A stretch of DNA of 39,979 bases, from the NCBI GenBank assembly GCA_029063085.1, contig JAIDOW010000049.1, forward strand, positions 1-39,979, written 5' to 3'. The first letter of the stretch is position 1. Each line of letters opens with the position of its first letter. A program made the position numbers and the translations under genes. Below are positions 664-18,131 of the stretch, in pieces. The notes beneath the pieces were generated by a model, which ran no database searches, was not told the origin of the DNA, and was given only the letters and a program-made list of their open reading frames with translations. This DNA is from Lachnospiraceae bacterium. Its GTDB lineage: Bacteria; Bacillota; Clostridia; Lachnospirales; Lachnospiraceae.

Positions 664-683
664 TAAAATACTCTGTTAAATGG

Positions 684-721
684 AAAATACCGCAGGAAAT
701 TGATCCTGCGGTATTTTTTTA
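684..721. terminator. Bidirectional intrinsic terminator between convergent genes
   Basis: A perfect 14-bp inverted repeat (684-697 and 704-717, core ACCGCAGGA/TCCTGCGGT, 6-base loop) is flanked by A-rich sequence on the left and a T run on the right. It can end the rightward AT-rich gene and the leftward conjugation operon. The T run overlaps the tcpC stop codon at 719-721. Confidence 0.9.
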
Positions 722-1615: not shown

Positions 1616-1632
1616 ATCAACAATCCTTTCTA

Positions 1633-4436: not shown

Positions 4437-4440
4437 AGCT

Positions 4441-6882
4441 TCACCTCATTTCTACCGGCGGTCTTGTATCAAAGGCATTAAATAACTGCTGAAAGACAGG
4501 GTGAATCTGAATCACACCCACACGACCATATAAATCTTGTATCAGACATTGACCGTTTTCCAGTTCACGCAATCGTTTCTGATTATGTTCGTCCTCACTG
4601 TCTACGCCGAAAAAGTCGAGAGTTTTCTTTATTTCATTCATGTCTGTGCTTCTGAATGCAAATTTCAAACCGATATTATTTTTTAATTTTTCGTCAAGTA
4701 AATCGTCTGCATTCTGTGTTACAAAATATACTCCAGCATTCATGGAACGTCCGGCACGTACTAACTTATTGGATAATGCTTTGCCTTGAGTAACCTGTAA
4801 AAAACTCCAAGCTTCGTCAAGGTCAACAATCTTAAAAATACTTCGGTCAGAATGTATAAAATCAAGTGCAAAAGTGCTGATAATCATAAGCATGGAGATG
4901 GACAGAAGTTCCATAGTTGTGTATTCTGTAAATGCTGTTTCAGAGTCCGGCAGAACAAGGTCAGATACTTGTATTATATTAAGTTGCTTTTCCAGACTAA
5001 TAGACTGACGTGTATTTCCGGCAGAAAAAAGCAGTCCTGCAAAATCATAATCAGTATAGCTTTCTATATGTCCGGCAATATTCCGTGATATCTCTGTGTT
5101 TTCTTTTTTGAGTTCATCTATCACAAGGAGTAGTCCACGTTTTTCACTTTGTGATACTTCTCTGACAGCTTTACGAAGAACAGGGAATTTTTCACCGTTC
5201 TGTGAAGAAATACCGGTCAGAAATGTTAGAATATCAACAGCAAGGCTTTCTGCGTCCTTTACGTTTTTCATGATCACAAACGGGTCAAGCATACCCTTGT
5301 TTTTATCCTCATTTGTAAGGTTTACAATATTGATTTCATGGGCAATGTCAGGCAATGATTTTTTCCAGTTTCCACGTTCGGATTTAGGGTCAAGTATGAC
5401 TGCCTGTCCTCCGAACATAACCGCATAATATACAAGCAGGTTATTAGCAAACGACTTTCCACCTCCAAGAGAACCTAAAAAGGCTGTCGCTAGAGCGTTC
5501 GTGACTGTACCTTTTACCCCTTGTGCCGCAATCCATGGTTTTAAATAGACGTTACGTCCGGTATCTATATTATATCCGATATAAATACCGTTGTTTTCTC
5601 CTAACATCTGTGCCGCACCAAATCCAAGTCCAGCAAGAAAATCAGACGTGACGTATTGTACATAGTCATTGATGTACCGCTTTCCAGATGGTATAAATTC
5701 TCCATGCAAGCCAATCATATCACCGAATGGTCGCACAAGTTTTACGTTCATATCATCATAAAAATCTTTTATCTCATCACAGCGGCGTTTCAATTCATCC
5801 AAGCTGTCAGCAGATACACGTATTACATAGCTAAGTTTATACATGGATTCCTTTGTAGTGTCTAAGTTTGTTTCAAGTTCGCTAACACTGTCTAAAGCCT
5901 CCTCGACATTAGAACCCGTGTCATTATCGGATTCCAGAGCATGATTATCCAAGTCAAGAAGTTCCTTTTTCTTATTGCGTACAGTAGCAAGAGCCTTTTT
6001 ATTTGTTATAATTTCAACATTCATACTTGTATCTATCGGAAAAGTAAACTGCTGTTGTTGATAGTAAAAAATCTCACAAGACGGAAAATCCAGTTCACCT
6101 ACTATGTTGCTGATTGTAAAGTATGATGTATATGTTGCCTTATCTTCACCGGTAATCTTAAGATAACGTTGCTTTTCTTCCACACAGTAACGTGATGGAC
6201 GGATAATATCATACCGCTTTACCAATGTTTCTTTTTTCAGCCTTTTAACCGGAAAATCATAATCATAATCTTCAAAGTCTGTGTCTGAATTTCCATGAAT
6301 ATGTTCTATAAGATAGCCAAAATCTTTTTTATCCAGTCTCCTTATTTTAAACCGGCGTGAAATTTTATTTTCAAGCAGTTTTTCAAGTTTTTGATACCTG
6401 CTTATTTCATCATTTGCCATTGAAACAAAATCACCCATAAGCCGGCTGTTTACACCATGGATAAAATCAGAAAAACTCATAGTGGCATTTTTCTTTACAT
6501 TTCTTAAACTGATTTCTTCTTCATTGACAATCAGCTTAAAACCGATAAAGAACCGGTAATCCATTTGATATTCTCCAATCATGTCGGTAAGAGCCTGTGT
6601 CTGCTGGTCTATTTTTTGAATAGCAATATTTTTTAGATTTCCGCTTATTTCTTTTTTGGAATGTTCTTGTACTGTCTTTATACTGCTTTGCGTACTTATC
6701 TGCAAAGCATGAATCGTACCGTCATGATTCTGTGCGATAAGCTGTCGGAAATTATCATGAAGCTGGAATTTTTCTTCTGCTGAAAGAAAAGAATAATTAT
6801 ATGGTATCATTTCATAGTAGGCATAGCATTCACCGTTATGGCTGAATACAAGGTTATTTTCAATGTACTTTATCGGGAACAT
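4441..6882 (-). CDS. VirB4-like conjugation ATPase (Tn916 Orf16 / ConE family)
   Basis: This is the cytoplasmic ATPase powering the type IV secretion-like channel. The 813-residue protein has the family's long N-terminal domain and a C-terminal P-loop ATPase with Walker A GSLGGGKS at about residues 470-477 and Walker B KIVDLDEAW near residue 690, followed by the motif VTQNADD typical of VirB4/TraE proteins. The start is set at the ATG ending at 6882: AAGGAG sits eight bases before it, while the longer frame needs a GTG that overlaps that ribosome site. It overlaps the 3' end of tcpE by 23 bases. The gene is complete and the nucleotide-binding motifs are canonical. Confidence 0.95.
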   Translation of the reverse strand: MFPIKYIENNLVFSHNGECYAYYEMIPYNYSFLSAEEKFQLHDNFRQLIAQNHDGTIHALQISTQSSIKTVQEHSKKEISGNLKNIAIQKIDQQTQALTDMIGEYQMDYRFFIGFKLIVNEEEISLRNVKKNATMSFSDFIHGVNSRLMGDFVSMANDEISRYQKLEKLLENKISRRFKIRRLDKKDFGYLIEHIHGNSDTDFEDYDYDFPVKRLKKETLVKRYDIIRPSRYCVEEKQRYLKITGEDKATYTSYFTISNIVGELDFPSCEIFYYQQQQFTFPIDTSMNVEIITNKKALATVRNKKKELLDLDNHALESDNDTGSNVEEALDSVSELETNLDTTKESMYKLSYVIRVSADSLDELKRRCDEIKDFYDDMNVKLVRPFGDMIGLHGEFIPSGKRYINDYVQYVTSDFLAGLGFGAAQMLGENNGIYIGYNIDTGRNVYLKPWIAAQGVKGTVTNALATAFLGSLGGGKSFANNLLVYYAVMFGGQAVILDPKSERGNWKKSLPDIAHEINIVNLTNEDKNKGMLDPFVIMKNVKDAESLAVDILTFLTGISSQNGEKFPVLRKAVREVSQSEKRGLLLVIDELKKENTEISRNIAGHIESYTDYDFAGLLFSAGNTRQSISLEKQLNIIQVSDLVLPDSETAFTEYTTMELLSISMLMIISTFALDFIHSDRSIFKIVDLDEAWSFLQVTQGKALSNKLVRAGRSMNAGVYFVTQNADDLLDEKLKNNIGLKFAFRSTDMNEIKKTLDFFGVDSEDEHNQKRLRELENGQCLIQDLYGRVGVIQIHPVFQQLFNAFDTRPPVEMR

Positions 6883-7258
6883 AAATTTCACTCCTTACTG
6901 ATGTTATAGCTTTATCAATGATTTCTTTTCTGTATTTTACAGATTTTCCGGCATACGTGATTTTAGGACGAAGAAAGTATGTACATACAGATTTAAGAAA
7001 ATTAACAGGCTTTTTTCCGTCAAAGGTTTTTTTATTCATAAAAAAGGTTACGGTAATAGGAATACCAAAATATTTTAACAGTGTGCCATTTATCATATTT
7101 AACGGCGGCAGACTTCCGAACATAATCACCAAAAGCAGTGTGATTATAAACCATGACATTTGATTAAAAGTAACAGGAAATGGAAGTCTGAAATCGTTTA
7201 TCGCATATATAACCTTTTCCACACTCCATATATTTGTGTAGCTTCTTAATTTTTTCAT
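6860..7258 (-). CDS. TcpE-like conjugal transfer membrane protein (Tn916 Orf17 family)
   Basis: TcpE proteins are small integral membrane subunits of the Gram-positive conjugation channel. From the ATG at 7258 (GAAAGGA upstream) it has 132 residues with hydrophobic segments at about 34-52 and 58-75 and a basic cytoplasmic C-terminal half. The gene lies immediately after a strong intrinsic terminator (7274-7312) and overlaps the VirB4-like gene by 23 bases, so it opens the channel sub-operon tcpE-virB4-orf15-cwlT-tcpC. Expression therefore seems to depend on read-through or on an unseen promoter. Confidence 0.88.
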   Translation of the reverse strand: MKKLRSYTNIWSVEKVIYAINDFRLPFPVTFNQMSWFIITLLLVIMFGSLPPLNMINGTLLKYFGIPITVTFFMNKKTFDGKKPVNFLKSVCTYFLRPKITYAGKSVKYRKEIIDKAITSVRSEIYVPDKVH

Positions 7259-7273
7259 ATTTTCATTCCTTTC

Positions 7274-7312
7274 AAAAAAAATACAGCAGTCCATAAAATA
7301 CAGACTGCTGTA
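7274..7312 (-). terminator. Intrinsic terminator inside the conjugation operon, between ardA and tcpE
   Basis: On the minus strand a perfect 10-bp stem (TACAGCAGTC paired with GACTGCTGTA; 7303-7312 and 7282-7291, 11-base loop) is followed by an eight-base U run (7281-7274). It lies 14 bases downstream of the tcpE start and just after the ardA stop. Its form is that of a full Rho-independent terminator. Confidence 0.88.
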
Positions 7313-7321
7313 AGTAAGTGT

Positions 7322-7819
7322 TTACCAAGGGCATTCAAAAATCCCATACTTTGTTTCGACAAATCGTCCTTCTAAATCAAGGTCACGTCCAAAGCTTTCA
7401 TAGTCTATATACCGGCTTAGATGATCCGGTATATCTCCTAAAGCACAGCATTCATCTATGTAATAATAGGCAACGTCTGTCATATCATTACAACCGGATA
7501 AATGTATTATATCGTCTTTATGTTCGCATAGTTCTTCTAAACTTCCGAATACTCCAACCAGTTCGTCTATGACTTCACACAAAGGATAATCCAATTCTTC
7601 TACCATTTCACAAAAACGGTTTATTTCTTCAATAGAAGTATATTCATCAATTTCAAAGGGAAGTTCATAATCATGGACTGCAAATTCTTCATACTCATCA
7701 TTCAGTCCTATTCGTTCTGCAACCTCATCATAATCAATGGGCGGTATAAACCAGTCACCGACTAATTCACCCTCGTTATATTTTCCTAAGTTTGCGATGT
7801 ATACCCTCATTTCCTCCAT
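7322..7819 (-). CDS. ardA: ArdA-family antirestriction protein (Tn916 Orf18 family)
   Basis: ArdA is a DNA-mimic protein that blocks type I restriction enzymes, protecting the single-stranded transfer copy once it becomes double-stranded in a recipient. The 165-residue product is very acidic (many Asp and Glu spread along the chain) and has the family opening RVYIANLGKYNEGEL and the segment DWFIPP typical of ArdA. It has the normal family length. A GAGGTG site precedes the ATG closely; a second in-frame ATG lies three codons inside. It sits in the position ardA takes in Tn916, between the TcpD-like gene and tcpE, and is followed by a terminator. Confidence 0.95.
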   Translation of the reverse strand: MEEMRVYIANLGKYNEGELVGDWFIPPIDYDEVAERIGLNDEYEEFAVHDYELPFEIDEYTSIEEINRFCEMVEELDYPLCEVIDELVGVFGSLEELCEHKDDIIHLSGCNDMTDVAYYYIDECCALGDIPDHLSRYIDYESFGRDLDLEGRFVETKYGIFECPW

Positions 7820-7839
7820 AGCTTCACCTCGCTATCGCA

Positions 7840-8058
7840 CTATTTTATAATCTGATTAAATAGTTTCAGCAACACATCTTTTACGCCTGTTGCATTAAAT
7901 ACCAGACCTACGGCAATCAGTGCGATTATAAGAAAACCTATCAGTTTTGTAAATTCACGCTTAAACCCTAGATATACGCCAATAAATACAATAGCCGTAA
8001 GCACAAGTGATTGTGCATTGTTCAAAAACCAGTCATACAGATTTTGTCCAAAATTCAT
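7840..8058 (-). CDS. TcpD-family small membrane protein
   Basis: The 72-residue protein is almost wholly hydrophobic with two transmembrane segments (about residues 17-32 and 38-56) joined by a short basic loop. Small proteins of this kind at this position, between the relaxase and ardA of Tn916-like elements, are classed with TcpD of clostridial conjugative plasmids, a subunit thought to lie in the channel. GGAGTGAA precedes the ATG. The assignment depends on size, topology and location. Confidence 0.8.
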   Translation of the reverse strand: MNFGQNLYDWFLNNAQSLVLTAIVFIGVYLGFKREFTKLIGFLIIALIAVGLVFNATGVKDVLLKLFNQIIK

Positions 8059-8071
8059 TTTTCTTCACTCC

Positions 8072-8173
8072 TTATTTTTTATCTGATTTACTGCTAATCT
8101 GCATAAGGCACATAGAAAACATTCCTATTGCCGCCCCTGCACTTAACAGTAAAAAATCAATTACTATTCTCAT
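8072..8173 (-). CDS. DUF3789-family micro-protein, 33 residues
   Basis: A short frame reads MRIVIDFLLLSAGAAIGMF and continues through CLMQISSKSD to a stop at 8072. It is one hydrophobic helix with a short polar tail, which matches the DUF3789 single-pass proteins found beside the relaxase in Tn916-like ICEs. AAGGAG lies seven bases before the ATG and overlaps the tail of the relaxase gene, which ends four bases away, implying coupled translation. Its function is unknown; a membrane accessory of the transfer channel is plausible from context. Confidence 0.85.
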   Translation of the reverse strand: MRIVIDFLLLSAGAAIGMFSMCLMQISSKSDKK

Positions 8174-8177
8174 TTCT

Positions 8178-9371
8178 TTACTCCTTGATAATCATTTCAT
8201 CTACCGAAACTGTCTGCTGTTTCAGTAGCTTTTTAAGCCTGTCAGTCAGTTTTGCATGTCTTAACATATCCTTGATATACGTTGTATCATTCACTTCATC
8301 TAATTTTATGGCGGCTTTAAGAGTAGGTGCGACCTGTCTGGAAAGCCAGTTTAATGTCCGATAAAATGAAAAAGGTTCAGGCTTTGTAGTCAGTTTCAAT
8401 CGTCTGCGGTTTTCTCCGATAAACCATGCCCACCGGTCATTAGTTTTCCAATCCCTGCGGTCTTTTGCATTATCTTTATCAACAAACCGTATATACCGGT
8501 TTATGATTGCAAATGCAGTCTTTTCAGCATCATAGTCAGTAAGCAGGTCTTTAACTGCATGATAGGCACGCTCATTTTTCAACCTGATTTCAAAGCGGTT
8601 TTTAATCGGTGTTTCCTCTACCGGAATATCATATTTTACGTACTGTTCATAATCTTTTTCGTATATGCAGAAGTAGACTTCCGATTTAAGTGAACCAATA
8701 TACAACGTATTTCCCATACCTGCTTTATTTTCTTCACTTCCTTTAACCAACTCACCAGAACGATAAGCTTTAAAACTGCGGAATACCGAGATACACTCCT
8801 CGTTTTTACATTTTTCTGTCAACATGGGAATGTCAAGGATTCCTGTCATATCATTTATGGCTAAATCCAGCCTTTTGAAAACTCCATTTTCACAAAGAAC
8901 GTCCATAAAGAAATCGTACCAGCTTCTATGCTGTGCCAGCAAAAAGCACTCATATTGTCTGCACCCCTGACCCTTAAGTTCAAGCAGAACACCTTTTTCA
9001 CTTTCCTGTGAAACAAGGATAAAAATATCGCCCATGCGGTAATGTTCCGTATATGAATAAAATCCAAAATTCTCATGCACCATAAAATCAAATTTGAGTT
9101 TCAGGATATTTTCAATAACATGCTTTACGTCCGTTGTAGGAAATCTTATCCTTACATAGTCAAATAGCATAGTCAGCGGCAAATCAGGATTATATCGTTC
9201 TAATGCTTCTGAAATAGAATCTTTCACATCTTCGGAGGGAACAGCTTTGCCGTTCTCTATATCACTTAAATACTGTCTTGAAATCCCTGCCGCTACTGCC
9301 AGTTTATTTTGAGATACACCGTATTCCATGCGTTTCTCTTTTAGTTTTTTTATCCAGTCAATTGTTATCAC
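8178..9371 (-). CDS. MobT/NicK-type relaxase with N-terminal HTH (Tn916 Orf20 family)
   Basis: This protein belongs to the replication initiation factor family (Rep_trans) that nicks oriT, starts rolling-circle replication and leads DNA transfer. Residues from about 5 to 60 form an XRE-type helix-turn-helix (SQNKLAVAAGISRQYLSDIE), and the catalytic Rep domain follows, with the characteristic segment LYIGSLKSEVYFCIYEKD in its middle. The frame is open back to a GTG at 9413, but that codon lies inside a 27-bp palindrome and lacks a proper ribosome site. I place the start at the in-frame GTG at 9371, just before the HTH, giving 397 residues; the exact start is uncertain. It lies directly downstream of the oriT hairpin. 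Confidence 0.9.
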   Translation of the reverse strand: MITIDWIKKLKEKRMEYGVSQNKLAVAAGISRQYLSDIENGKAVPSEDVKDSISEALERYNPDLPLTMLFDYVRIRFPTTDVKHVIENILKLKFDFMVHENFGFYSYTEHYRMGDIFILVSQESEKGVLLELKGQGCRQYECFLLAQHRSWYDFFMDVLCENGVFKRLDLAINDMTGILDIPMLTEKCKNEECISVFRSFKAYRSGELVKGSEENKAGMGNTLYIGSLKSEVYFCIYEKDYEQYVKYDIPVEETPIKNRFEIRLKNERAYHAVKDLLTDYDAEKTAFAIINRYIRFVDKDNAKDRRDWKTNDRWAWFIGENRRRLKLTTKPEPFSFYRTLNWLSRQVAPTLKAAIKLDEVNDTTYIKDMLRHAKLTDRLKKLLKQQTVSVDEMIIKE

Positions 9372-9385
9372 TCCAATCAAAAAGA

Positions 9386-9412
9386 TGTCAACTGACAGTC
9401 TGTTAGTTGACA
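9386..9412. repeat. 27-bp near-perfect palindrome upstream of the relaxase start
   Basis: Arms TGTCAACTGACAG (9386-9398) and CTGTTAGTTGACA (9400-9412) pair with a single mismatch around one central base. It sits between the oriT hairpin and the relaxase start, where an accessory oriT site or an operator for the HTH part of the relaxase would be expected. Confidence 0.8.
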
Positions 9413-9485
9413 CCTTTTAACATTATAGAAACCTTGATATTATCAGGTTTTTTTAGATTTAAAAATTGTTTTCAGCCGCATTTGT

Positions 9486-9510
9486 ACCCCCCTGTTAGAT
9501 ACAGGGGGGT
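9486..9510. other. oriT core hairpin of Tn916/ICEBs1 type
   Basis: A perfect 10-bp inverted repeat, ACCCCCCTGT and ACAGGGGGGT, surrounds a five-base loop. Read on the minus strand it contains CTAACAGGGGGGT followed by ACAAA, the pattern of the Tn916 and ICEBs1 transfer origins, where the relaxase nicks within the repeat. It lies in the 147-bp gap between the coupling ATPase stop (9519) and the relaxase start, as in Tn916. The exact nick position is not deduced here. Confidence 0.9.
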
Positions 9511-9518
9511 GAAACAGT

Positions 9519-10907
9519 TCAGTCCGTACCTGCGGCTTCCGCTTCGCTCGCCGCTTGTACGTCCTGACTGTTCCCTTGCAGTCTGCCTATTTCTTTTAAA
9601 AAATCATGTCCCTTGGGTACAAGAGGAGTATAAAACTCTGATATGACACTTTTTCCTGTATCTACATATCCACGTCCCCTTATCTGCTTTAGAAAAAACT
9701 GCTTGCTTGTCTCTCCGAACATCATGGAATAACCAAGTTCGGACATACGCCCTAAAGCTACCCTGAAATTAAACTGGTCACGTATCCCATCACCTAAATA
9801 TTTTGCGTCCGGTCTTTGACAGGCAAGGACAAGAAAAAATCCTGCCTGTCTGCCAAGCATTACAATCTGTTTCAGCTTGTTCAAAACAGCGGCATTTTCT
9901 TTCGTCCCCAGCATTTCCATAAATGCAACGTATTCATCAAATATGAGAAAATGCGGCGGCAGTCCTAAATAAGAATAGTTTTCACCTGTTTTATAACCAT
10001 TCATTTGTTTCATACTTTCGCTTCTTTTCATCATATTCTCATAAAAACGGTAAATACAGTCTATTATATCGTCTTTGCGGTAATAGACTTCCGGCAGGAC
10101 TGTTTCTAAGTCTGCAAGGTCAGCATTTTTAGGGTCTAATACCGATATTTCCGCATTTGTTTCTAACAATGCTTCAATTACAGTCAAAATAAAATAAGTT
10201 TTTCCACCGCCAGTCCCACCTGCAATCAGCATGTGTGGAAGTGCGTCATATTCCCAGAAGATATTTTTCATAAGCTTCATTTTGCCGTTTTCTACTTTAA
10301 CGTCAGTTATGGGTATGCGGTTCGCTATCATATCATAGAACAGGGTATATTCAACATAAGATTCATGCAGTTCTTTTTCCGTAAGTTCACAGAACAAACC
10401 GCTTTCCAGTTTCTTTTCCAGATTCAATAGCTGTTCCTGATACTTTCCTAAAGAAATTTCAGCTTGTATATGAAGCAATTCATTTTCCATACGGTAATAC
10501 ATTTTGGGGAAATAGGTTATTTTCTCTCTGTTTTCCCCAAAAGTCAGGTCTTTAAAATATCCGCTGTTTTCTGTTTTTTCTGATTCGTACCAGCCATTTT
10601 CCAGTATCATGCGAGCAAGTTTTTGACGGTGCTTCATTTGTTTCAGCTTGTCGAACTGGAATTTGTAATACAAATAAGATGTTATTACACATAGCAACAA
10701 GGCAATAACAATTGAAAATATCATATAAGGCGTGATTTTTATGTTCCTGATGAACTGATATGTTGTCCAGTCTGTTAAAATAATATGTTTCAAATTCAGC
10801 AGAATAACAGTCATTACAAAAATGCCGCTAAGAGAACATGCAGAGAATCGAAAAACCAGTGACTTGTCACTGGCTCTGATTCTATGTCCTTTTTTCCGAT
10901 TTATCAT
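9519..10907 (-). CDS. FtsK/SpoIIIE-type coupling ATPase (TcpA / Tn916 Orf21 family)
   Basis: This is the DNA-pumping coupling protein that delivers the relaxase-DNA complex to the channel. The 462-residue protein has two N-terminal transmembrane helices (about residues 18-38 and 58-80), a cytoplasmic linker and an FtsK motor domain with Walker A GGTGGGKT at 230-237, Walker B LIFDE at 321-325 and the sensor-like segment LACQRPDAKYLGDGIRDQF. Length and motif order match Tn916 Orf21. AAAGGC precedes the ATG; it starts two bases after the DUF961 gene ends and is followed by oriT. Confidence 0.95.
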   Translation of the reverse strand: MINRKKGHRIRASDKSLVFRFSACSLSGIFVMTVILLNLKHIILTDWTTYQFIRNIKITPYMIFSIVIALLLCVITSYLYYKFQFDKLKQMKHRQKLARMILENGWYESEKTENSGYFKDLTFGENREKITYFPKMYYRMENELLHIQAEISLGKYQEQLLNLEKKLESGLFCELTEKELHESYVEYTLFYDMIANRIPITDVKVENGKMKLMKNIFWEYDALPHMLIAGGTGGGKTYFILTVIEALLETNAEISVLDPKNADLADLETVLPEVYYRKDDIIDCIYRFYENMMKRSESMKQMNGYKTGENYSYLGLPPHFLIFDEYVAFMEMLGTKENAAVLNKLKQIVMLGRQAGFFLVLACQRPDAKYLGDGIRDQFNFRVALGRMSELGYSMMFGETSKQFFLKQIRGRGYVDTGKSVISEFYTPLVPKGHDFLKEIGRLQGNSQDVQAASEAEAAGTD

Positions 10908-10909
10908 AT

Positions 10910-11281
10910 TTATGCCTTTCCATTTTTATTATTCACATTTCCGGTTACTGCCGCTTTATTTTTTAACACAATATCGTCTGCTTTGATATACCAGTCGATA
11001 GTTGCACCCCTGAATGTAGCATTTGCAACGGTATCAGCTATCGGATTGATAATTTCTACTTCCGCATTATAATCAAATTCTTTTAGCGGAACGTCTGCTG
11101 GAACACTGACCTGAATCATGCGACCCTGTTCTTTAGATTTAAGGTCATAAGTACGCTCCTTGATTTCATCACTTAAAGTACCGTCCTCATTCTGAATACG
11201 GATTTCACGCCTTAATGCTGAAAACTTCAATACTCCAAATGTTTTTTCTTTCTCAATGATAATTCCGTTTGCTAATCTCAT
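10910..11281 (-). CDS. DUF961 (YdcP-like) conjugation accessory protein, copy 2
   Basis: DUF961 proteins are found immediately upstream of the coupling ATPase in Tn916 (Orf22/Orf23) and ICEBs1 (YdcP); reported roles involve processing or replication of the element. The 123-residue product has the family opening RLANGIIIEKEKTFGVLKFSAL and a C-terminal IDWYIKADDIVLK segment. It is separated from its paralogue (12,039-12,353) by the sortase gene, whereas in Tn916 the two lie together. It ends two bases before the coupling ATPase start. Confidence 0.88.
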   Translation of the reverse strand: MRLANGIIIEKEKTFGVLKFSALRREIRIQNEDGTLSDEIKERTYDLKSKEQGRMIQVSVPADVPLKEFDYNAEVEIINPIADTVANATFRGATIDWYIKADDIVLKNKAAVTGNVNNKNGKA

Positions 11282-11301
11282 ATTTTATTCTCCTTTTTTC
11301 C

Positions 11302-12039
11302 TTATATTTTTTTTGCAACAATTACAAGTCTGCTGTTATCAGCAGAGTATTCACAGGTGGACAGCGTTAAGAGTGTATCTCCATATACTGCTGATGTACC
11401 TGTATCATAGAAAGACAACTGCCTGCACTTATTTATGTATGCTGAAAAGTCACTTTCCTGTTCGGCTTCTACAAAAGCATTATAACGAAAACTGCCATAT
11501 GCATTTGTCCTGAATACGGCTGTTACTTCATAAACAGCGTGTTCCATAAGCGTATCAAATCGAATAAACTTATGTTTTTTATAAAAATCTTCTGACTTAT
11601 AACTTTCCAACGCTCCGAACATTACACCGCCTTTTATGTGATGTCCATAGATGATTAGATTATCGCTTTTATCAGGAATACAATTTTCCTGTAAATATGG
11701 CACTCCTAATCTGCTGTACTCCTTTTCAAAATTATGATTCAGATAATAGTCGGGATTGTCCGGTGTCTGCATTACCGGATAATTTATTTGTGTACCCTCA
11801 ATGCTTATCCAGCCTGCTAAATCATTATTTTTGTGATACAGATTGATATAATCCGGCAACATTTTCCTATTTTCTTGTAAGTAGATTTCTTCTTTTTCTG
11901 TTTCCTCTACAAGTTCTGCCAGATTATCAAATATCTGTATCTGCTCCTGTTCCTGTGAATATTCGGAATATGCTTTATGAAAGCAAAATGCCGTTACTGA
12001 TAAAAAAGCAACGGCAAGCAGTAGATATATTTTTCTCAT
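11302..12039 (-). CDS. Class B sortase (cargo sortase for the ICE adhesin)
   Basis: This is a membrane-anchored transpeptidase that links sorting-signal proteins to peptidoglycan. The 245-residue protein has an N-terminal signal-anchor (about residues 4-22), catalytic His133 in IIYGHH, catalytic Cys229 in TLSTCEYS and Arg237 in NSRLVIVAKK, which is the class B arrangement. It lies between two DUF961 genes, one base overlapping the upstream one, and 0.5 kb downstream of the TPQTG-bearing adhesin, its obvious substrate. Clostridioides difficile SrtB uses similar (S/P)PxTG signals, which supports the pairing. Confidence 0.94.
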   Translation of the reverse strand: MRKIYLLLAVAFLSVTAFCFHKAYSEYSQEQEQIQIFDNLAELVEETEKEEIYLQENRKMLPDYINLYHKNNDLAGWISIEGTQINYPVMQTPDNPDYYLNHNFEKEYSRLGVPYLQENCIPDKSDNLIIYGHHIKGGVMFGALESYKSEDFYKKHKFIRFDTLMEHAVYEVTAVFRTNAYGSFRYNAFVEAEQESDFSAYINKCRQLSFYDTGTSAVYGDTLLTLSTCEYSADNSRLVIVAKKI

Positions 12040-12353
12040 TATGCTTTTACCATATCATCTGCTGAAAGAATATAATTTGTGAAACCACGTTCACCAATTT
12101 TATATCCCTCTGCTGTAATTTTAGGATTTATCAGACTGATTTTTTCTTCGGCTTCAAAACTCTTTTCTCCGGCAGAAGCTGGGATTCTAACAACAATATC
12201 ATCTGCACGCTGTACATCTGAATAAAGGTTATAGCTTCTGCTGATAACTGCCATACGTCCGTTTACCCTGCGTTGTTCTACTTTATTTTCTCCTGCATAT
12301 TCTAAAGTTCCGAATGTTTTCTCCATATTTGGTACTACATACTTTAATTCCAT
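12039..12353 (-). CDS. DUF961 (YdcP-like) conjugation accessory protein, copy 1
   Basis: The product has 104 residues when started at the ATG at 12,353, which follows a GAGGT site; the longer frame begins seven codons upstream and overlaps that site. It resembles Tn916 Orf23: KYVVPNMEKTFGTLEY near the start, a basic YNLYSDVQ segment and a terminal NYILSADDMVKA. Its stop overlaps the sortase start by one base. It is paralogous to the DUF961 gene at 10,910. Its upstream gap (12,354-12,565) contains a long palindrome and no other gene. Confidence 0.85.
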   Translation of the reverse strand: MELKYVVPNMEKTFGTLEYAGENKVEQRRVNGRMAVISRSYNLYSDVQRADDIVVRIPASAGEKSFEAEEKISLINPKITAEGYKIGERGFTNYILSADDMVKA

Positions 12354-12385
12354 TTTGATTACCTCATCTTTCATTTTTTTATTTT

Positions 12386-12497
12386 ATTCTGCTTTTGAAA
12401 AGTATACCTATCAGCTTAAACCTGTAAAGGGCAAGCGTTGTGCTTACGCACCCTTGACAGGTTTAGCTTTGATAGGTTTTTAACAGTTAAGCAGAAT
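12386..12497. repeat. 112-bp imperfect palindrome between adhesin and conjugation genes
   Basis: Nested inverted arms run from ATTCTGCTT (12,386-12,394) with AAGCAGAAT (12,489-12,497), through ACCTATC (12,406) with GATAGGT (12,471-12,477), to AAACCTGTAAAGGG (12,418-12,431) with CCCTTGACAGGTTT (12,451-12,464), and an inner GCGT/ACGC. It is not followed by a strong T run on the minus strand, so it is not an ordinary terminator for the adhesin gene. It fills most of the only sizeable non-coding gap in this part of the operon. Confidence 0.8.
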
Positions 12498-12565
12498 TAA
12501 GTTGCACTGTCAGCTAAAGCTGAATGGCGGTGAACGGGATTTCACATTTATATCATACGCCATGC

Positions 12566-15500
12566 TTATTTACCTGATTTCTTTCTACGGTATATAATAA
12601 AAAGAAGTCCGGCTGAAACAGCAGAGAAGATACCAAATGCAAGGTAAATTCTTTTGTCCATGGAATTGTCACCTGTCTGTGGTGTAGACGGTGTAAACGG
12701 TTTATCTGGAATCTTTTCATTAACAGCATGAATTTCAATTATCTGTTCATGTTCAGCAACTGTAAAGGCATATATTTCTTCCTTATCAAACGTATATCCC
12801 TTTTTGGCTTCTAATTCCTGTAAATAGTAATCTCCATAATCCAAATCGGACAAGGAATACATACCGTCTTTATCTGTTTCAAATTCTAACAGTCTTGTAC
12901 CGTCCTTTTTAAACAGTCCGAATTTAACACCGCTCAAAGCTGTTCCGTTTTCATCTGTTTTCACCAAGCGAAAACCACCACGAATCAATTTATTTTCCAC
13001 TTCAACTACAGTTTTCTCCTTACTGACTGTTACTGTCTGACTATCAGGCAGGATATATCCAACTGTCTTATTGTCTTTAACTTCTGTAATTTCATATGTA
13101 CCGGCAGGAATATTTTCTATAAGGATTCTGCCGTCTTTATTTGTTACAAAAATCTGTTCAAAAGATGTTCCTATTTCCGTATTACCTTTTACCAGAAAAC
13201 TTATTCCCTCTATCTTGCTATCTTCACTGGTCTTTATAATTTCAATACTGCCTTTTATGAGATTGTTCATAATCGGCTTTCCCCCATTTAAGCAGATTGT
13301 AATATCTGCTTCTTTGCTGTCAGCATATTCAAAATGAATATCATATTCTTTTGTGTCTAAACAATACCCCTTTGCCGTTGAAAGTTCCTTTGCATAATAA
13401 TTTCCAGCAGGTAAATCAGCGTTAAATGTTCCTTTACCATGTTCATCTATATTAATAACATCTAAAAGAGAATCCTTTTTGATACCGGCTGTACTATTTT
13501 CGGTCATAATATCTTCACGAGCATACAGTCCGAACGTTACCTCATTATAAGGAATTTTTTCCTGACCGATAATTGTTTCCAGTTCCTTATGCATGGAAAT
13601 TTTTACTTTCTGCCTTTCATTTTCAAGATTGACAGAAGTTGAAACAATTTTTGTGTTCTGGTCTTGATAGGTTAATTCAAAAGCATAGGCTTTCGAATCA
13701 AGAACAAAACCATTTAATGTATTTTTTTCTACCGCCTGATACCTGCCTAGGTAAAGTTCCTTGCTTTCTGCTTTTCCGTTCTTATCTGTTGTTACAGTAT
13801 CTACTACAGTATCTTTTTGATACCGGATTGTACCGTCAGGTGTTGTTATATCTTCTGCGGCTATTATATCAAAGGTTACACCTTCTAAACCTTGACAATC
13901 ATATACCGGAGTATATATTTTTCCGTATTTACTGTCCCTGCTTTCTATTCCGGCAAATCGTTCTCCCTGCTTTTCAAAGGAAACAACACCCTTTACCGGT
14001 ATGTCAGAACAAACAATTTCAAGGACTGCTGACGGATTTTCTGACGATATGGAAAATGGGATTGGTGCTTCTGCCAATACATATCCGTATGGTGCTTTTA
14101 CCTCATAAAGTTCATATTTTCCATATTTCAGTGATTCAGGCAGAACCAGAGTTCCGTCCTCTGCTGTTTCAAAAATATCAAGGTCAGCAGGTACAGGATA
14201 ATTCAGTTTTTGAACAACCCAATTTCCGGTACTGTCCTTAATTTTAAACTGTGTTCCTGCAAGAGGGATATGCTTTCCTGTTTCAGCATCTTTTTTCACA
14301 ATTTTAACTTCTGATTCGTATACCTTGTTTTCTAAAATAAACTGATATATTTTTCCGTCTGTATCTATCATAACGTCAAAAGGTGCTATCTTCCGATAAC
14401 CCTCTTTTCCTGATGTTTCTTCTACTCTGTATAATCCATAAGGAATCAGCGGAGTGATAGCGTAGCCGTTTTTATCTGTAATAATTTTGCAAGCTTCTTT
14501 TCCTGTGGATTTTAATGTAAATGTAAACTCAATACCCTCTAACGGTTGTTTTATGCTGTTGTTTTCTGTTTTGTCTGAAACCGGTTTATCTGCAAATTTA
14601 ATGACAGCAACCTGACCTTTTATTACCTCATCATAAATACTTGTATCAAACCTGCTGATTTCCACTATCTGACCGTCAAAATCACCTTTAACGATAATCG
14701 GTTCGTTGTTCAGACTATACCCTTTAGGTGCATTTATCTCATATACCTTATATGTTCCTAGTGGCAGATATTTGCTTGTTGCATATCGACCGTCAGCCTT
14801 AATACGGTCTACAAGGTATCCCTGACTGTTATAGATTTCATATTCTACACCGTTCAGAATAGCATCACCCTGTGGTGTATCTCCTGTTTCACTGTCTCTT
14901 TTGGTTATGCGGATATTAAATTTCTTAAGAACATTATCAAAGGAAACACTTGTGGTCTGCGAAGCCTTGACAATAATATCCTGTGTTTTTGGATTTACAT
15001 ATCTGTTAGGTGTATCTACTTCTGTTATAGTATATTTTCCGGCTACCAGATTCTTAATGTCTATGTATCCGTCTGGATCTGTTGTATATACATTGTCAAT
15101 CCCGTTCCCGGTAATACGGAAACGCAAGCCGCTTACAACTCCGTCCTCAGACGTTTTCTTTAATCTGATGTTTCCTAGTTTCTGTGTATGCAGTTTAAAA
15201 CAAGCCGTTACCTTATATGCTCCGTCTAAATCTATAGAAGCGAAATCCTGTTTGTCAGGATTGACCCAATATACAGGCTGTCCGTTTACAAATCCGTCCG
15301 GCAGTTTTTTATTTGCCGTGATTGTTTTTGTATCAAATGCTTTATCTGATGACAGCAGAAGTTTATTGCCGTTTTTCTTTATGCTTATGTCAGTGCTTGA
15401 AAAATCAAATTGTGACAGTACGTTTTTACTGTCCTCTAAGGTTAATTCATACTTTCCGGTACTGTTGTTGTATTTCATTTCATAGTCTTTTGCTTTATCG

Positions 15501-16063
15501 GCAGTAGAAGCGGTAAAGCTGGGAATTATGTCTGCATTTTCGATATTGCTTTTTATCTTGTCATATATCTTTCTTGCCTTTGCATTATCTTTCAGCAGTT
15601 TGTCAGCTATTTTGGATTCCCAAGCAGAATCATAATGACCCTCTGTAATAACCCAGATAATTGCCTGTGTTGCCATTGCATTATCAAGCCATGAACCACC
15701 ATATACCGCACCTGATTTTACGTTATATCCGAAAATCAAAGCCTTTTTCAACAATATCTTTTGTTTTGATGTCAGATAGCTTACGCTTGTTTTTCTTTCA
15801 AAACTGTCACCGGTATTCACTTCATGACCGTATTCAATACAATACACCGGATTACCGGAAATTTGAAATGTCCACCATGGCTTGTCATCAAGTGTATATC
15901 CGAACGGTGCTGGAAAACTGCTGTCAAATTTGTATGTATACCCTGAATGATTTTCTAATACCACGCTTTTTGAAGCGGCATATATGCTTTGAACCGGTAT
16001 AGCAGTTAAAACCATTACTATTGTAAGTAAGCTTACTAATAAGCGTTTTAAAATCTTTTTCAT
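12566..16063 (-). CDS. Sortase-anchored adhesin: thioester domain plus about eight SpaA/CnaB repeats
   Basis: This is a 1165-residue surface protein from the ATG at 16,063 (AAAGGAAG just upstream; the longer GTG frame overlaps it). A signal peptide (about residues 1-30, ending near YAAS) precedes an N-terminal domain with Cys75 in NPVYCIEYG and Gln133 in MATQAIIW, the Cys-Gln pair of thioester adhesins that bond covalently to host targets. About eight SpaA/CnaB repeats follow, with repeated ITK or IVK starts and E-x-x-APKGY-type ends, expected to form internal Lys-Asn isopeptide bonds. The C terminus has TPQTG (about 1127-1131), a hydrophobic helix and a basic tail. A class B sortase lies nearby as partner. 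The gene is cargo in the conjugation operon; collagen-binding names used for such proteins are not proven here. Confidence 0.93.
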   Translation of the reverse strand: MKKILKRLLVSLLTIVMVLTAIPVQSIYAASKSVVLENHSGYTYKFDSSFPAPFGYTLDDKPWWTFQISGNPVYCIEYGHEVNTGDSFERKTSVSYLTSKQKILLKKALIFGYNVKSGAVYGGSWLDNAMATQAIIWVITEGHYDSAWESKIADKLLKDNAKARKIYDKIKSNIENADIIPSFTASTADKAKDYEMKYNNSTGKYELTLEDSKNVLSQFDFSSTDISIKKNGNKLLLSSDKAFDTKTITANKKLPDGFVNGQPVYWVNPDKQDFASIDLDGAYKVTACFKLHTQKLGNIRLKKTSEDGVVSGLRFRITGNGIDNVYTTDPDGYIDIKNLVAGKYTITEVDTPNRYVNPKTQDIIVKASQTTSVSFDNVLKKFNIRITKRDSETGDTPQGDAILNGVEYEIYNSQGYLVDRIKADGRYATSKYLPLGTYKVYEINAPKGYSLNNEPIIVKGDFDGQIVEISRFDTSIYDEVIKGQVAVIKFADKPVSDKTENNSIKQPLEGIEFTFTLKSTGKEACKIITDKNGYAITPLIPYGLYRVEETSGKEGYRKIAPFDVMIDTDGKIYQFILENKVYESEVKIVKKDAETGKHIPLAGTQFKIKDSTGNWVVQKLNYPVPADLDIFETAEDGTLVLPESLKYGKYELYEVKAPYGYVLAEAPIPFSISSENPSAVLEIVCSDIPVKGVVSFEKQGERFAGIESRDSKYGKIYTPVYDCQGLEGVTFDIIAAEDITTPDGTIRYQKDTVVDTVTTDKNGKAESKELYLGRYQAVEKNTLNGFVLDSKAYAFELTYQDQNTKIVSTSVNLENERQKVKISMHKELETIIGQEKIPYNEVTFGLYAREDIMTENSTAGIKKDSLLDVINIDEHGKGTFNADLPAGNYYAKELSTAKGYCLDTKEYDIHFEYADSKEADITICLNGGKPIMNNLIKGSIEIIKTSEDSKIEGISFLVKGNTEIGTSFEQIFVTNKDGRILIENIPAGTYEITEVKDNKTVGYILPDSQTVTVSKEKTVVEVENKLIRGGFRLVKTDENGTALSGVKFGLFKKDGTRLLEFETDKDGMYSLSDLDYGDYYLQELEAKKGYTFDKEEIYAFTVAEHEQIIEIHAVNEKIPDKPFTPSTPQTGDNSMDKRIYLAFGIFSAVSAGLLFIIYRRKKSGK

Positions 16064-16163
16064 TTTTCTTCCTTTCACGCTATTGTTACATACAAAAACA
16101 CCACTTGATTGGTTTTAACCTCTCAAATGGTGTCTATTGCATGATTATAGCTTTTTTTATTTT
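16061..16163. repeat. Adhesin leader repeat, copy 1 (promoter plus 5' hairpin)
   Basis: This leader matches 16,900-16,996 in the same orientation with small gaps: RBS-like GAAAGGA, a stem-loop with GG TTTT loop and a TATAAT box all recur. Copy 1 carries the adhesin start codon at its left edge. The spacing between the two TATAAT boxes is 833 bases. Confidence 0.85.
16094..16133 (-). terminator. 5' leader hairpin with U run upstream of the adhesin gene
   Basis: On the minus strand, an 11-bp stem (16,123-16,133 with 16,098-16,108, one mismatch) is followed by a five-base U run. It can end transcripts of the small gene at 16,169. It can also act as an attenuator for transcripts from the TATAAT box only a few bases upstream of it. 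Confidence 0.75.
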
Positions 16164-16173
16164 TACGTTTAAA
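16144..16173 (-). promoter_or_regulatory. Candidate promoter of the adhesin gene
   Basis: On the minus strand TATAAT (16,149-16,144) lies 18 bases after TTTAAA (16,173-16,168). The -35 region overlaps the stop codon of the upstream small gene. Transcription would begin a few bases before the leader hairpin. The -35 match is only four of six. Confidence 0.55.
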
Positions 16174-16522
16174 ACATATCACCAATATTCTTTTTATGCA
16201 TGTTCATACCCTGTCTAATCTGTTCTTTTATGTTCCTGCACATTTGTTCATCACCTATCTTTTCCCATTCTTTTACCCATGCTTCGGCTTGAAGTATTTC
16301 TATAGCTTCCGATATAACTATATGATTAACATTTCTCATTAAAAGAATATATATCAGTTCATATAGACCATCTTTTTCTAACATTTCAATAATTTCAAGG
16401 CATTCATCTGGTTCTATTGCGTATCCCTCCCAACATATCCTACGTTGAATCTTATTGTGATTTGACAACCACCTTATTATTTCTGCTGTTCTGTTTTCCA
16501 TTAAATTACTGTTGTTCTGCAT
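16169..16522 (-). CDS. Small unknown ICE protein, divergent from the XRE regulator
   Basis: I do not recognise a family. The product has 117 residues, starting at the ATG at 16,522 after AAAGGAGAGG; the longer frame starts with TTG inside the operator region and is rejected. The sequence is mostly helical, rich in Glu, Ile and Met (for example CLEIIEMLEKDGLYELIYILL), with no transmembrane segment or obvious DNA-binding motif. It is divergent from an XRE-family gene with which it shares a promoter region carrying palindromes, so it may be an antirepressor, a co-regulator of the ICE, or half of a toxin-antitoxin-like pair. None of these roles is shown by the sequence. Confidence 0.8.
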   Translation of the reverse strand: MQNNSNLMENRTAEIIRWLSNHNKIQRRICWEGYAIEPDECLEIIEMLEKDGLYELIYILLMRNVNHIVISEAIEILQAEAWVKEWEKIGDEQMCRNIKEQIRQGMNMHKKNIGDMF

Positions 16523-16551
16523 TTCTATTACCTCTCCTTTTAAAGAAAATT

Positions 16552-16578
16552 TTGGTATAGATACCAAGTGGTATCTAT
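16552..16578. promoter_or_regulatory. Overlapping palindromic operators, site 1
   Basis: ATAGATACC (16,557-16,565), four bases, then GGTATCTAT (16,570-16,578) form a perfect palindrome. TTGGTAT (16,552-16,558) and ATACCAA (16,561-16,567) form an overlapping one. The GATACC/GGTATC half-sites recur in site 2, so a dimeric regulator, probably the adjacent XRE protein, is expected to bind. Confidence 0.8.
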
Positions 16579-16605
16579 TTTACACTCAAAATGTGATATT
16601 ATCAA
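16577..16605 (-). promoter_or_regulatory. Sigma-A promoter for the leftward small gene
   Basis: On the minus strand TTGATA (16,605-16,600), a 17-base spacer and TAAAAT (16,582-16,577) make a good vegetative promoter. It is bracketed by operator site 2 upstream and overlapped at its -10 by operator site 1, so it should be repressible. Confidence 0.8.
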
Positions 16606-16611
16606 GTGCAA

Positions 16612-16627
16612 GATACTAAATAGTATC
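16612..16627. promoter_or_regulatory. Palindromic operator, site 2
   Basis: GATACT, AAAT, AGTATC is a perfect palindrome with the same 6-4-6 layout as the core of site 1 (GATACC, AAGT, GGTATC). It lies 18 bases upstream of the XRE start codon, just before its ribosome binding site, so binding here would favour autoregulation. Confidence 0.8.
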
Positions 16628-16645
16628 ATTTTGGAGGTTTAAATA

Positions 16646-16888
16646 ATGCAGAAATTATTGCAAGATGTTGGATTTGGCAAAAATCTACAACGACTACGTA
16701 AGTCACACAATCTGTCCCAGTATGATATGGCGTCTAAAATGGAATTGTTAGGACGTCCCATGTCTAGGGCTCAATATGCTCATATTGAACAGGGAATAAG
16801 AAACTTATATATTAGTGACCTTATGCTATTCAAAGAAATTCTGGACGTGGATTATGCAGATTTCTTTGAACCCCTTACTTATGATTGA
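16646..16888 (+). CDS. XRE-family transcriptional regulator of the ICE
   Basis: The 80-residue protein is a single helix-turn-helix domain: the recognition unit spans about residues 22-55 (LSQYDMASKMELLGRPMSRAQ followed by YAHIEQGIR), an XRE/Cro layout. GGAGG lies eight bases before the ATG. It is divergent from the small unknown gene, with two sets of GATACy palindromes between them, a lambda-like arrangement suggesting control of ICE gene expression or of the adhesin cargo. A perfect bidirectional hairpin follows the stop. No peptidase or sensor domain is attached, so induction must involve another factor. Confidence 0.9.
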   Translation: MQKLLQDVGFGKNLQRLRKSHNLSQYDMASKMELLGRPMSRAQYAHIEQGIRNLYISDLMLFKEILDVDYADFFEPLTYD

Positions 16889-16899
16889 TTTATTGTGTT

Positions 16900-16996
16900 T
16901 ATTTTTCTCCTTTCCTGCTATCATACAAAAAACACCATTTGATTGGTTTTCCTTTCAAATGGTGTTTTATTGTGTGATTATAGCTTTTTTATTTTA
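16900..16996. repeat. Adhesin leader repeat, copy 2 (orphan)
   Basis: This copy has the same order as copy 1 on the minus strand: TATAAT (16,982-16,977), a stem-loop, a U run, GTATG, and an AAAGGAGAAAAAT ribosome-site-like tail. Where copy 1 has the adhesin ATG, copy 2 has ATAAA, so no gene follows. It runs antisense into the end of the XRE gene. Confidence 0.85.
16929..16968. terminator. Bidirectional intrinsic terminator after the XRE gene
   Basis: Perfect 14-bp arms AAAACACCATTTGA (16,929-16,942) and TCAAATGGTGTTTT (16,955-16,968) with a 12-base loop give a terminator on both strands. It ends the rightward XRE transcript. It is the counterpart of the adhesin leader hairpin. Confidence 0.88.
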
Positions 16997-17049
16997 TTTT
17001 TTTGTTCTTTTCCACGTTTCTGTGGGCTTTGTTGCGGTTGTCTATATTT

Positions 17050-17178
17050 CTATGTCCCATTGGGACCTAAAAATCCAAAGATATCCCTCTGTTGTACCTG
17101 TAGTGAGAGATTGACCACTCCCCTCTGTTTTCCATAATCTTTAGTCAGATTACAAATTGATATTGCGTTCACTTCCAT
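17050..17178 (-). pseudogene. ABC transporter ATPase gene truncated in Walker A by the ICE
   Basis: From the ATG at 17,178 (AGGAGG just upstream) the frame reads a typical ABC ATPase start: AISICNLTKDYGKQRGVVNL, then QRDIFGFLGPNGT, and stops. GFLGPNG is the beginning of the Walker A motif (normally GPNGAGKST or GPNGTGKTT), so the gene breaks within the P-loop after 42 residues. It lies 48 bases downstream of the DUF3021 gene in the layout LytTR regulator, DUF3021, ABC exporter, where the ATPase would be about 230-300 residues followed by a permease. The remainder is expected at the far left end of the ICE, outside the window. The fragment cannot hydrolyse ATP. Confidence 0.9.
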
Positions 17179-17226
17179 AACTTCCTCCTGCTTTTTATAC
17201 TTCACTATCCCAATCTACTGTAATAT

Positions 17227-17691
17227 CTATTCCCGCTCCTCATCAGGCGGTATTTTTTCCCGGTTTTTAAAATCCTTCAGCTCCCTATTCAATTTTGCTG
17301 TATCAGCATCTCTCTTTATCTTGTAACAAAGAAATACACATAAATAGCACAGGATTACATACAAAAAGAAAAGAAAACTTGCCTTAATATCCCGGTCATA
17401 CCATTTTCCAAGGAAACTGACCACAGTATAGAGAATGGAGCAGCTAATAGAAAAAATTCCTTCTTTTATTCCAAAGTGCTCTGCTTCGTCAAAATTTCCC
17501 AAGAGATATACCTGTATATATCCTATTATATAAGTTGTAAATATCATTTCGGTCATGATAATAATGCTGGCATAAAAACTGCCACCCTTAATACGATACA
17601 AAAAATAAAAAAAGAGGATGATGCCAAAATAAAGACACGCTTTAAATTCAATGCCAATTTCAGAATACAAATATCTTTTTAACCAGTTCAT
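17227..17691 (-). CDS. DUF3021-family membrane protein, partner of the LytTR regulator
   Basis: The 154-residue protein has four predicted transmembrane helices (about residues 15-31, 42-64, 78-97 and 103-123) and a charged cytoplasmic tail rich in Lys and Glu. Four-helix DUF3021 proteins are regularly encoded just after a LytTR regulator and are thought to hold or modulate it at the membrane. Its ATG overlaps the LytTR stop (ATGA), so translation is coupled. The downstream ABC ATPase of this operon is destroyed by the ICE, so this signalling pair may now lack its transporter target. Confidence 0.88.
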   Translation of the reverse strand: MNWLKRYLYSEIGIEFKACLYFGIILFFYFLYRIKGGSFYASIIIMTEMIFTTYIIGYIQVYLLGNFDEAEHFGIKEGIFSISCSILYTVVSFLGKWYDRDIKASFLFFLYVILCYLCVFLCYKIKRDADTAKLNRELKDFKNREKIPPDEERE

Positions 17692-18131
17692 CTCATTTCC
17701 CCCTTTAATATATTCCTTAACTCTTTGGCATAACGCCTTGAAATTACAACATGTTCTCTGTTATCCATTGTCACATCAATCCTGTTTCCCGGCATACTCT
17801 GTAATTTCTGGACCCGGTATATATTGACTACCATGGATTTGCTGCACCGAAAGTATCCCTCATCTGCATAGGCTCGTTCTGCTGCCGCCAATGTAAGTCC
17901 TGAACGGTAGACCTCTTTTTCGGTATAAATGTAGACAGTCCCTTCTACACTTTCCAGATAGATCACATCATATGGCTTAATCACAAACTGCTGCCCATTT
18001 TTCATCCCAATCAGTTTCCCGCTCTGCCCCTCGATATAATGCACAATCCCTTCTATCTGCTCTGTCATCTGCCTGTAACGGATCCTTATTTCTTCACTTC
18101 CCTCTGATATCTGCTGCAATACAACCTTCAT
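17688..18131 (-). CDS. LytTR-family DNA-binding regulator
   Basis: The 147-residue protein has no receiver domain. Residues 1-37 are a short helical lead, and about 38-146 form a LytTR DNA-binding domain, with the usual DVIYLESVEGTVYIYT, FRCSKSMVVNI and VISRRYAKELR segments. Stand-alone LytTR proteins paired with DUF3021 usually control their own operon and a neighbouring ABC exporter. A candidate promoter lies at 18,165-18,193. The protein looks complete even though the downstream exporter is interrupted. Confidence 0.92.
   Translation of the reverse strand: MKVVLQQISEGSEEIRIRYRQMTEQIEGIVHYIEGQSGKLIGMKNGQQFVIKPYDVIYLESVEGTVYIYTEKEVYRSGLTLAAAERAYADEGYFRCSKSMVVNIYRVQKLQSMPGNRIDVTMDNREHVVISRRYAKELRNILKGEMR

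Follow-up and report, generated by a model that had tools for sequence, protein, structure and literature searches.

The window (the whole stretch of DNA analysed, 39,979 nt, contig G000:C56 of a Lachnospiraceae bacterium) contains a minus-strand operon, read at 17050-18131, which is cut short by a conjugative element (ICE) at its downstream end (Table 1). Genes for a LytTR regulator and a DUF3021 protein lie upstream of, and on the same strand as, a 42-codon frame (17178-17050, minus strand) that reads MEVNAISICNLTKDYGKQRGVVNLSLQVQQRDIFGFLGPNGT and ends in ..DIFGFLGPNGT. From the break down to position 1 the window is ICE DNA, with a conjugation module of the Tn916 family (eight Pfam families matched); neither the ICE end nor the ICE body had a match in the plasmid or phage collections.

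Table 1. Features of the interrupted operon and of the adjoining element in the window.
Feature	Position	Strand	Remarks
ICE portion within window	1..17059		Contig starts inside element
TcpC-like conjugation protein	719..1672	-	PF12642
Lysozyme/NlpC-P60 conjugation hydrolase	1633..2634	-	PF13702, PF00877
VirB4-like conjugation ATPase	4441..6891	-	PF12846
TcpE	6860..7294	-	PF12648
ArdA antirestriction protein	7322..7819	-	PF07275
Rep_trans relaxase/replication initiator with HTH	8178..9413	-	PF02486, PF18106
FtsK-like coupling protein	9519..10907	-	PF01580
Sortase	11302..12039	-	PF04203; cargo
DUF961 protein, conjugation module	12039..12374	-	PF06125
Thioester/SpaA-repeat surface protein	12566..16078	-	PF08341, PF17802; cargo, 1170 aa
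Small helix-turn-helix gene beside ICE end	16646..16888	+	PF01381
23-nt element arm, ICE non-LSR end	17037..17059	-	TGGGACATAGAAATATAGACAAC; 16/23 positions match other arm
Chimeric ORF, 42 codons	17050..17178	-	Host codons plus stop supplied by element
13-base palindrome	17054..17066		GTCCCATTGGGAC; half host, half element
Crossover dinucleotide, AA on gene strand (TT on +)	17060..17061	-	Common to both junctions (window/L015 intersected with L064); symmetry centre
ABC ATPase 5′ end, host part	17062..17178	-	To GGT CCC of Gly-Pro; orthologues L016:6446-7276, L017:8120-8950
DUF3021 gene, interrupted operon	17227..17691	-	PF11457; order as in L016, L017
LytTR regulator gene, interrupted operon	17688..18131	-	PF04397

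Alone, the 42-aa piece is not recognized by Pfam; it was identified through two congeneric orthologues and through an in-frame continuation at the start of a second contig, G000:C110. As the original prediction had it, this is the start of an ABC ATPase ending in mid P-loop: the gene is broken at GPN|GAGKST, and DNA homology to the congeneric intact gene ends at 17057. The LytTR and DUF3021 genes predicted upstream were recognized by Pfam, and both congeners (G025 and G020) have the same gene order, LytTR-DUF3021-ABC-permease, with an intact ABC gene (GFLGPNGAGKSTTIRSLL). Whether the relatives' orthologue also ended at this stop had been set beforehand as a point of refutation; in the two congeners it runs on past it, as GPNGAGKSTT.

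The missing part of the ATPase, expected beyond the other end of the ICE, is found at C110. One of the genome's 102 PF00005 rows starts at profile position 19 (C110:144, near the contig start); here the ABC_tran profile is matched in the frame ..SNGAGKSTTIRSLLGLIK.., and an ABC-2 permease gene follows. This 3′ half is preceded by the tail of a large serine recombinase (LSR), which forms that end of the element (L015:2-109); the enzyme is classed as an LSR by relationship, since it is known by its last 36 residues only. In a search of 397 family genomes with this 36-aa query the nearest relative was L027 (76% over 33 aa), which also sits in an ABC gene. The body of the window LSR was not found in the assembly, from which the stretch between window position 1 and C110 is absent; a further integrase might lie in that stretch. 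Five LSRs did turn up in the genome, with 26-38% identity to the LSR of L061, a relative discussed below. Three LSR genes of the window genome stand side by side, at G000:C51:4076-7734.

The window junction reads GGTCCC-AA-TGGGACATAG and the C110 junction TATGTCTCT-AA-TGGTGCCGG, while the congeners have GGACCC-AA-TGGTGCCGG at this position. That the two junctions belong to one insertion is something we infer, as they lie on two contigs. The assembly is MAG-like, with 111 contigs, and the ICE crosses contig breaks, so that the ICE end might have been wrongly joined to the start of an ABC gene. Against such a chimera, both junctions lie within contigs (at 17060 of 39979 and at about 145 of 57425), the element arms are symmetric, and other genomes (L071, L064) show the same arrangement on contigs without a break; a misjoin can for practical purposes be dismissed.

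The original prediction had also pointed to a near-palindrome at the break, encoded by the conserved GPNG codons. The palindrome is there, but it is a composite: it joins a host half-site (17062-17066) to an element half-site (17054-17059) across the dinucleotide that both have in common (17060-17061). Since 17054-17059 is ICE DNA, the final codons of the frame, GGG ACA TAG (Gly-Thr-stop), derive from the element.

Relatives of the LSR were collected from three sources: the 397 family genomes searched with the 36-aa query (25 with a match), genome_contigs (the best 80 of 121 confirmed) and viral_contigs (4 loci). Among the listed loci 114 could be oriented, 113 of them with readable sequence past the LSR stop. 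An ABC gene broken at identical codons, either its start or its remainder, makes up the flank in the window and in L027, L060-L068, L070, L071 and L112. Two of these genomes have a second LSR copy (L155, L156), which likewise lies in ABC Walker A codons. Among the matches listed, all 16 insertions of the clade, in 14 genomes, are thus in ABC genes at Walker A codons (G-x-[NK]-G-A). The survey of relatives' junctions for P-loop codons that had been proposed, here a screen of the 113 listed loci for the lead part of the Walker A motif, gave 14/14 clade loci against 1/99 others, the exception (L125) having no following GK. In plasmids the LSR protein had two records, at less than 60% identity; viral_contigs, queried with the LSR of L061, gave 11 loci of 29-39% identity, all outside the clade. 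A further sample, of 392 genomes of the order, yielded neither an ABC case nor a contrary one, so that the ABC rule rests on 16 insertions.

The interrupted genes are diverse, while some of the enzymes are nearly identical. Each LSR of L060-L068 and L070 either is the query or matches it at 97-99% identity; the corresponding 5′ halves (not whole proteins) reach at least 50% identity only in the pairs L061/L067, L061/L062 and L062/L067. Over all sixteen 5′ halves median pairwise identity is 35% (120 pairs); two of the pairs are close (L067/L155, 72%; window/L068, 62%), which leaves 14 groups at that level. In two genomes L063 and L064 carry an identical 28,496-bp element stretch in different ABC genes, that of L064 being LivG-like. 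The L063 element appears by eye to be cut, at the start of contig G462:C9 (L142), by a sequence like a group II intron end.

Both ABC halves can be read in five of the 16 cases (window, L064, L071, L112, L156) and the 5′ half alone in the other 11; for L065, no ABC 3′ half came to light in the sequence as far back as the contig start. In all five the 3′ half resumes at NGAGK[ST], and outside the window the ABC_tran profile is matched from position 19-21. Pfam finds ABC_tran in just three of ten 5′ halves, all below the cut-off (with one odd match to NRIP1), because these halves are only about 40 aa long. An element-borne stop lies at most 2 codons from the junction codon in 14/16 insertions. 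GG precedes the AA at -6/-5 in 16/16, and CC at -3/-2 in 11/16. The LSR end of the element adjoins the 3′ half in the window and the 5′ half in the other 15 insertions; near-symmetric arms would allow either polarity.

The possibility left in the original prediction that this was a one-off, in which an element of relaxed specificity strikes a P-loop by chance, is refuted by this recurrence. Relaxed sites have been described for multi-targeting LSRs (PMC10083194), but none of the clade's 16 listed insertions falls outside Walker A codons, all are in identical phase, and the sole motif match among the 99 other LSR loci lacks GK; a chance strike is hardly credible. The companion suggestion, that an integrase aimed at the conserved motif could enter many different ABC genes, is borne out by the same insertions, with a correction of the enzyme type to serine recombinase.

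Used as a marker, TcpC is present in 4 of 13 relatives' genomes, and only the copy in the L071 genome has been shown to lie within an ABC-borne element. That element is Tn916-like and about 25 kb long; the L064 element (about 37 kb) has a TraG/VirD4-type coupling protein, a topoisomerase and ArdC/YodL domains. Since these backbones differ, one recombination module appears to drive unrelated conjugative elements. The LSRs of L061, L028, L071 and L029 contain PF00239, PF07508 and PF13408 (Resolvase catalytic, Recombinase and zinc ribbon domains). PF14287 (DUF4368) was below threshold in L071 (22.9 bits, cut-off 25) and had no match in L061, L028 or L029. In three elements (window, L064, L071) a hairpin was seen by eye near the non-LSR end, with TGTGATTATAG or a similar sequence after it; the window sites are 16930-16985 and 16090-16150 (the second copy 83% similar), and L144 and L152 have such sequences near distal element ends.

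Intersecting the window and L064 junctions leaves AA, part of the GPNGAGK Asn codon, as the 2-bp core common to both ends. The host base after AA differs between the L064 junctions and the base before it between those of the window, which places the exchange at AA itself. The arms are symmetric about AA in all five ABC elements (16-18 of 23 positions matched), and attP arms were near-palindromic in 6/6 elements tested, with none of 2000 shuffles as good.

These observations can be drawn together as follows. The break would mark where a Tn916-like conjugative element, moved by an LSR, has its right attachment junction, and the window insertion was probably made by the enzyme whose last 36 residues remain at the other end. 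LSRs of this clade would recombine a near-palindromic 48-bp attP, made up of two 23-nt arms flanking AA, with a putative attB in the Walker A-coding DNA of ABC ATPases, GGN-NNN-AA|Y-GGN-GCN-GGN-AAA, the crossover being predicted to fall on AA in the GxNGAGK Asn codon. The LSR presumably reads Walker A DNA directly, and the many ABC paralogues of a genome may serve as alternative landing sites. On sequence grounds, we put the probability that a Tn916-like element, with an LSR clade using ABC Walker A codons as attB, explains the break at about 90%. The same break in many ABC genes of the relatives suggests that the enzyme lands on one of the protein motifs most frequently repeated in bacteria. 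In the window genome the pattern GGNNNNAAYGGNGCNGG has 27 sites, 23 of them in ABC domains (PF00005 rows), and the reversed pattern has none: at the DNA level the site is specific, and biologically it exists in many copies.

A different way to arrive at this distribution is selection after random insertion, with the tolerated insertions surviving, rather than recognition of Walker A DNA. In its favor, loss of an ABC exporter can often be tolerated, but selection would not put every break at the identical two bases, and the arms of the element agree with the core of the target; this account is highly improbable. The predicted inactivity of the exporter follows from the gene break: the interrupted gene cannot yield a working ATPase while the element is present. 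It is plausible that excision restores it, as the original prediction proposed. A further reading is a host-kept regulatory switch, comparable to sigK-type interruptions, for which a precise 2-bp core would give clean restoration. The interrupted ABC genes vary among genomes, however, which leaves such a switch without a conserved host gene to act on, and it is very unlikely.

The ABC-borne LSRs were placed among their relatives in a tree of 104 LSRs (of 108, leaving out L044, L050, L094 and L131), which does not include L112 and L025 (no usable LSR protein) or L155 and L156 (fetched by place). The 12 ABC rows form a single branch (SH-aLRT 100); the others comprise 49 labelled collagen-like, 5 labelled SpoVAD and 38 other. 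Collagen labels were assigned automatically (at least 4 GXY triplets), three of them by hand, and those of L096 and L110 are probably due to chance. A separate LSR branch (L114, L119, L123, L124, L133) adjoins SpoVAD genes; these labels were given by eye except one, a flank confirmed by Pfam (PF07451).

The centre of the arm differs between the two main target types. In the clade around the ABC branch it is AA/TT in 14/14 ABC loci (the arm pattern matched twice in 10 of them, where the match at the junction was used). The 21 collagen-labelled loci with an arm have AC in 15 (L030 and L072 sharing a single sequence, and L137-L139 another), GT in 2, AG in 2 (L056, L106), CA in 1 (L082) and CC in 1 (L075); the arm was not usable in 4 collagen loci and in 5 of 6 others, and L136, without a clear target label, has GT. 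Both ends are available for four collagen cases, G109 and G284 by sequence and G333 and G680 by reading frame; they have 23-nt arms as in the ABC elements, centred on AC in G109 and G284.

The further sample of the order had a match in 10 of its genomes, at 11 loci, three of which (L167, L172, L173) are the same as L029, L032 and L126. Among the eight new loci L166, L168, L171 and L176 are clearly collagen-like, L174 and L175 have short GXY runs, and L169 and L170 have no clear target label; the centres are GT (3), AC (2), AG (2) and CT (1), none is AA/TT, and none of the eight has a Walker A motif. No collagen-like locus with an arm, this sample included, is centred on AA/TT. Collagen-type centres are not one strict dinucleotide, AG, CA and CC being seen besides the usual AC/GT. 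AG stands where most show AC or GT in the collagen-like targets L056, L106, L174 and L175.

GGNCC-N-AC-N-GGNGC encodes GPTGA, and with AA in place of AC it encodes GPNGA. A scaffold GGNCCN-xx-NGGNGC would therefore be common to both targets, with xx = AC in collagen-like repeats and AA in Walker A, and the dinucleotide may pick the gene family; this selector reading is drawn from an association, as those very bases enter into how both columns of the comparison are defined. The odds are slightly in favor of the attP central dinucleotide acting as target selector, an ancestral change from AC to AA having moved an LSR lineage from collagen-like to ABC genes; the direction is one that we infer from a quick tree with midpoint rooting and long-branch warnings.

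Integrases face a trade-off between specificity, with one safe site that is often occupied or absent, and looseness, with harmful hits. The clade appears to offer a third answer, a long specific site with dozens of copies in every genome, because the protein motif that it codes for has no freedom to vary; in the window genome the scale is 102 PF00005 rows and 27 short-motif matches. According to the model, the vulnerable ABC genes are those that have GxNGAGK with an AAY codon, and not those with GxSGSGK; truncated ABC genes of gut Firmicutes may be element junctions. The natural attB variants are a ready set for LSR engineering, and what part the core dinucleotide plays in choosing a target becomes directly testable. 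In the open-licence full-text literature, no report was found of an integrase that targets collagen-like repeats or the Walker A codons of ABC genes, nor of a target set by a protein motif or of an AC/AA switch.

Among known elements, Tn5397 has a Tn916-type conjugation module in which an LSR, TndX, replaces Int, and its core dinucleotide is GA; to our knowledge it has no Walker A targeting. The window element shares the combination of module and LSR, and differs in its core (AA). Its ICE resembles Tn916 itself in TcpC, lysozyme/NlpC, AAA_10, TcpE, ArdA, Rep_trans, FtsK and DUF961. Tn916, however, uses a tyrosine integrase and many sites, according to the available part of one report (PMC12084037), while the window element has the tail of an LSR at one end and a GC-rich coding motif.

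Multi-targeting LSRs have been published for a TndX-like/DUF4368 clade, 63% of which has the DUF4368 domain (PMC10083194, accessible portion). Like the present clade, these are LSRs with a 2-bp core and many target genes per LSR cluster; the many targets of the present clade, in contrast, are one protein motif, and the accessible main text of that report has no mention of ABC transporter, ATP-binding or collagen. MTI_6538, another multi-targeting LSR, has an AA core and 21 attB sites (PMC13137831, in part), and its flanks, rich in A/G and C/G, are also like those found here. Its target genes are unnamed in the text, the likeness is one of description, and the terms ABC transporter, ATPase, motif and P-loop are absent from the accessible main text; it may be a member of the present ABC-targeting group.

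The nearest analogue in target is provided by P-loop inteins with homing endonucleases, which are likewise selfish DNA in the conserved P-loop codons of ATPases (PMC8966425, PMC5874633, available sections). Inteins splice out, spare the protein and home to one allele each, whereas the present element leaves its target gene destroyed and would move from one paralogue to another.
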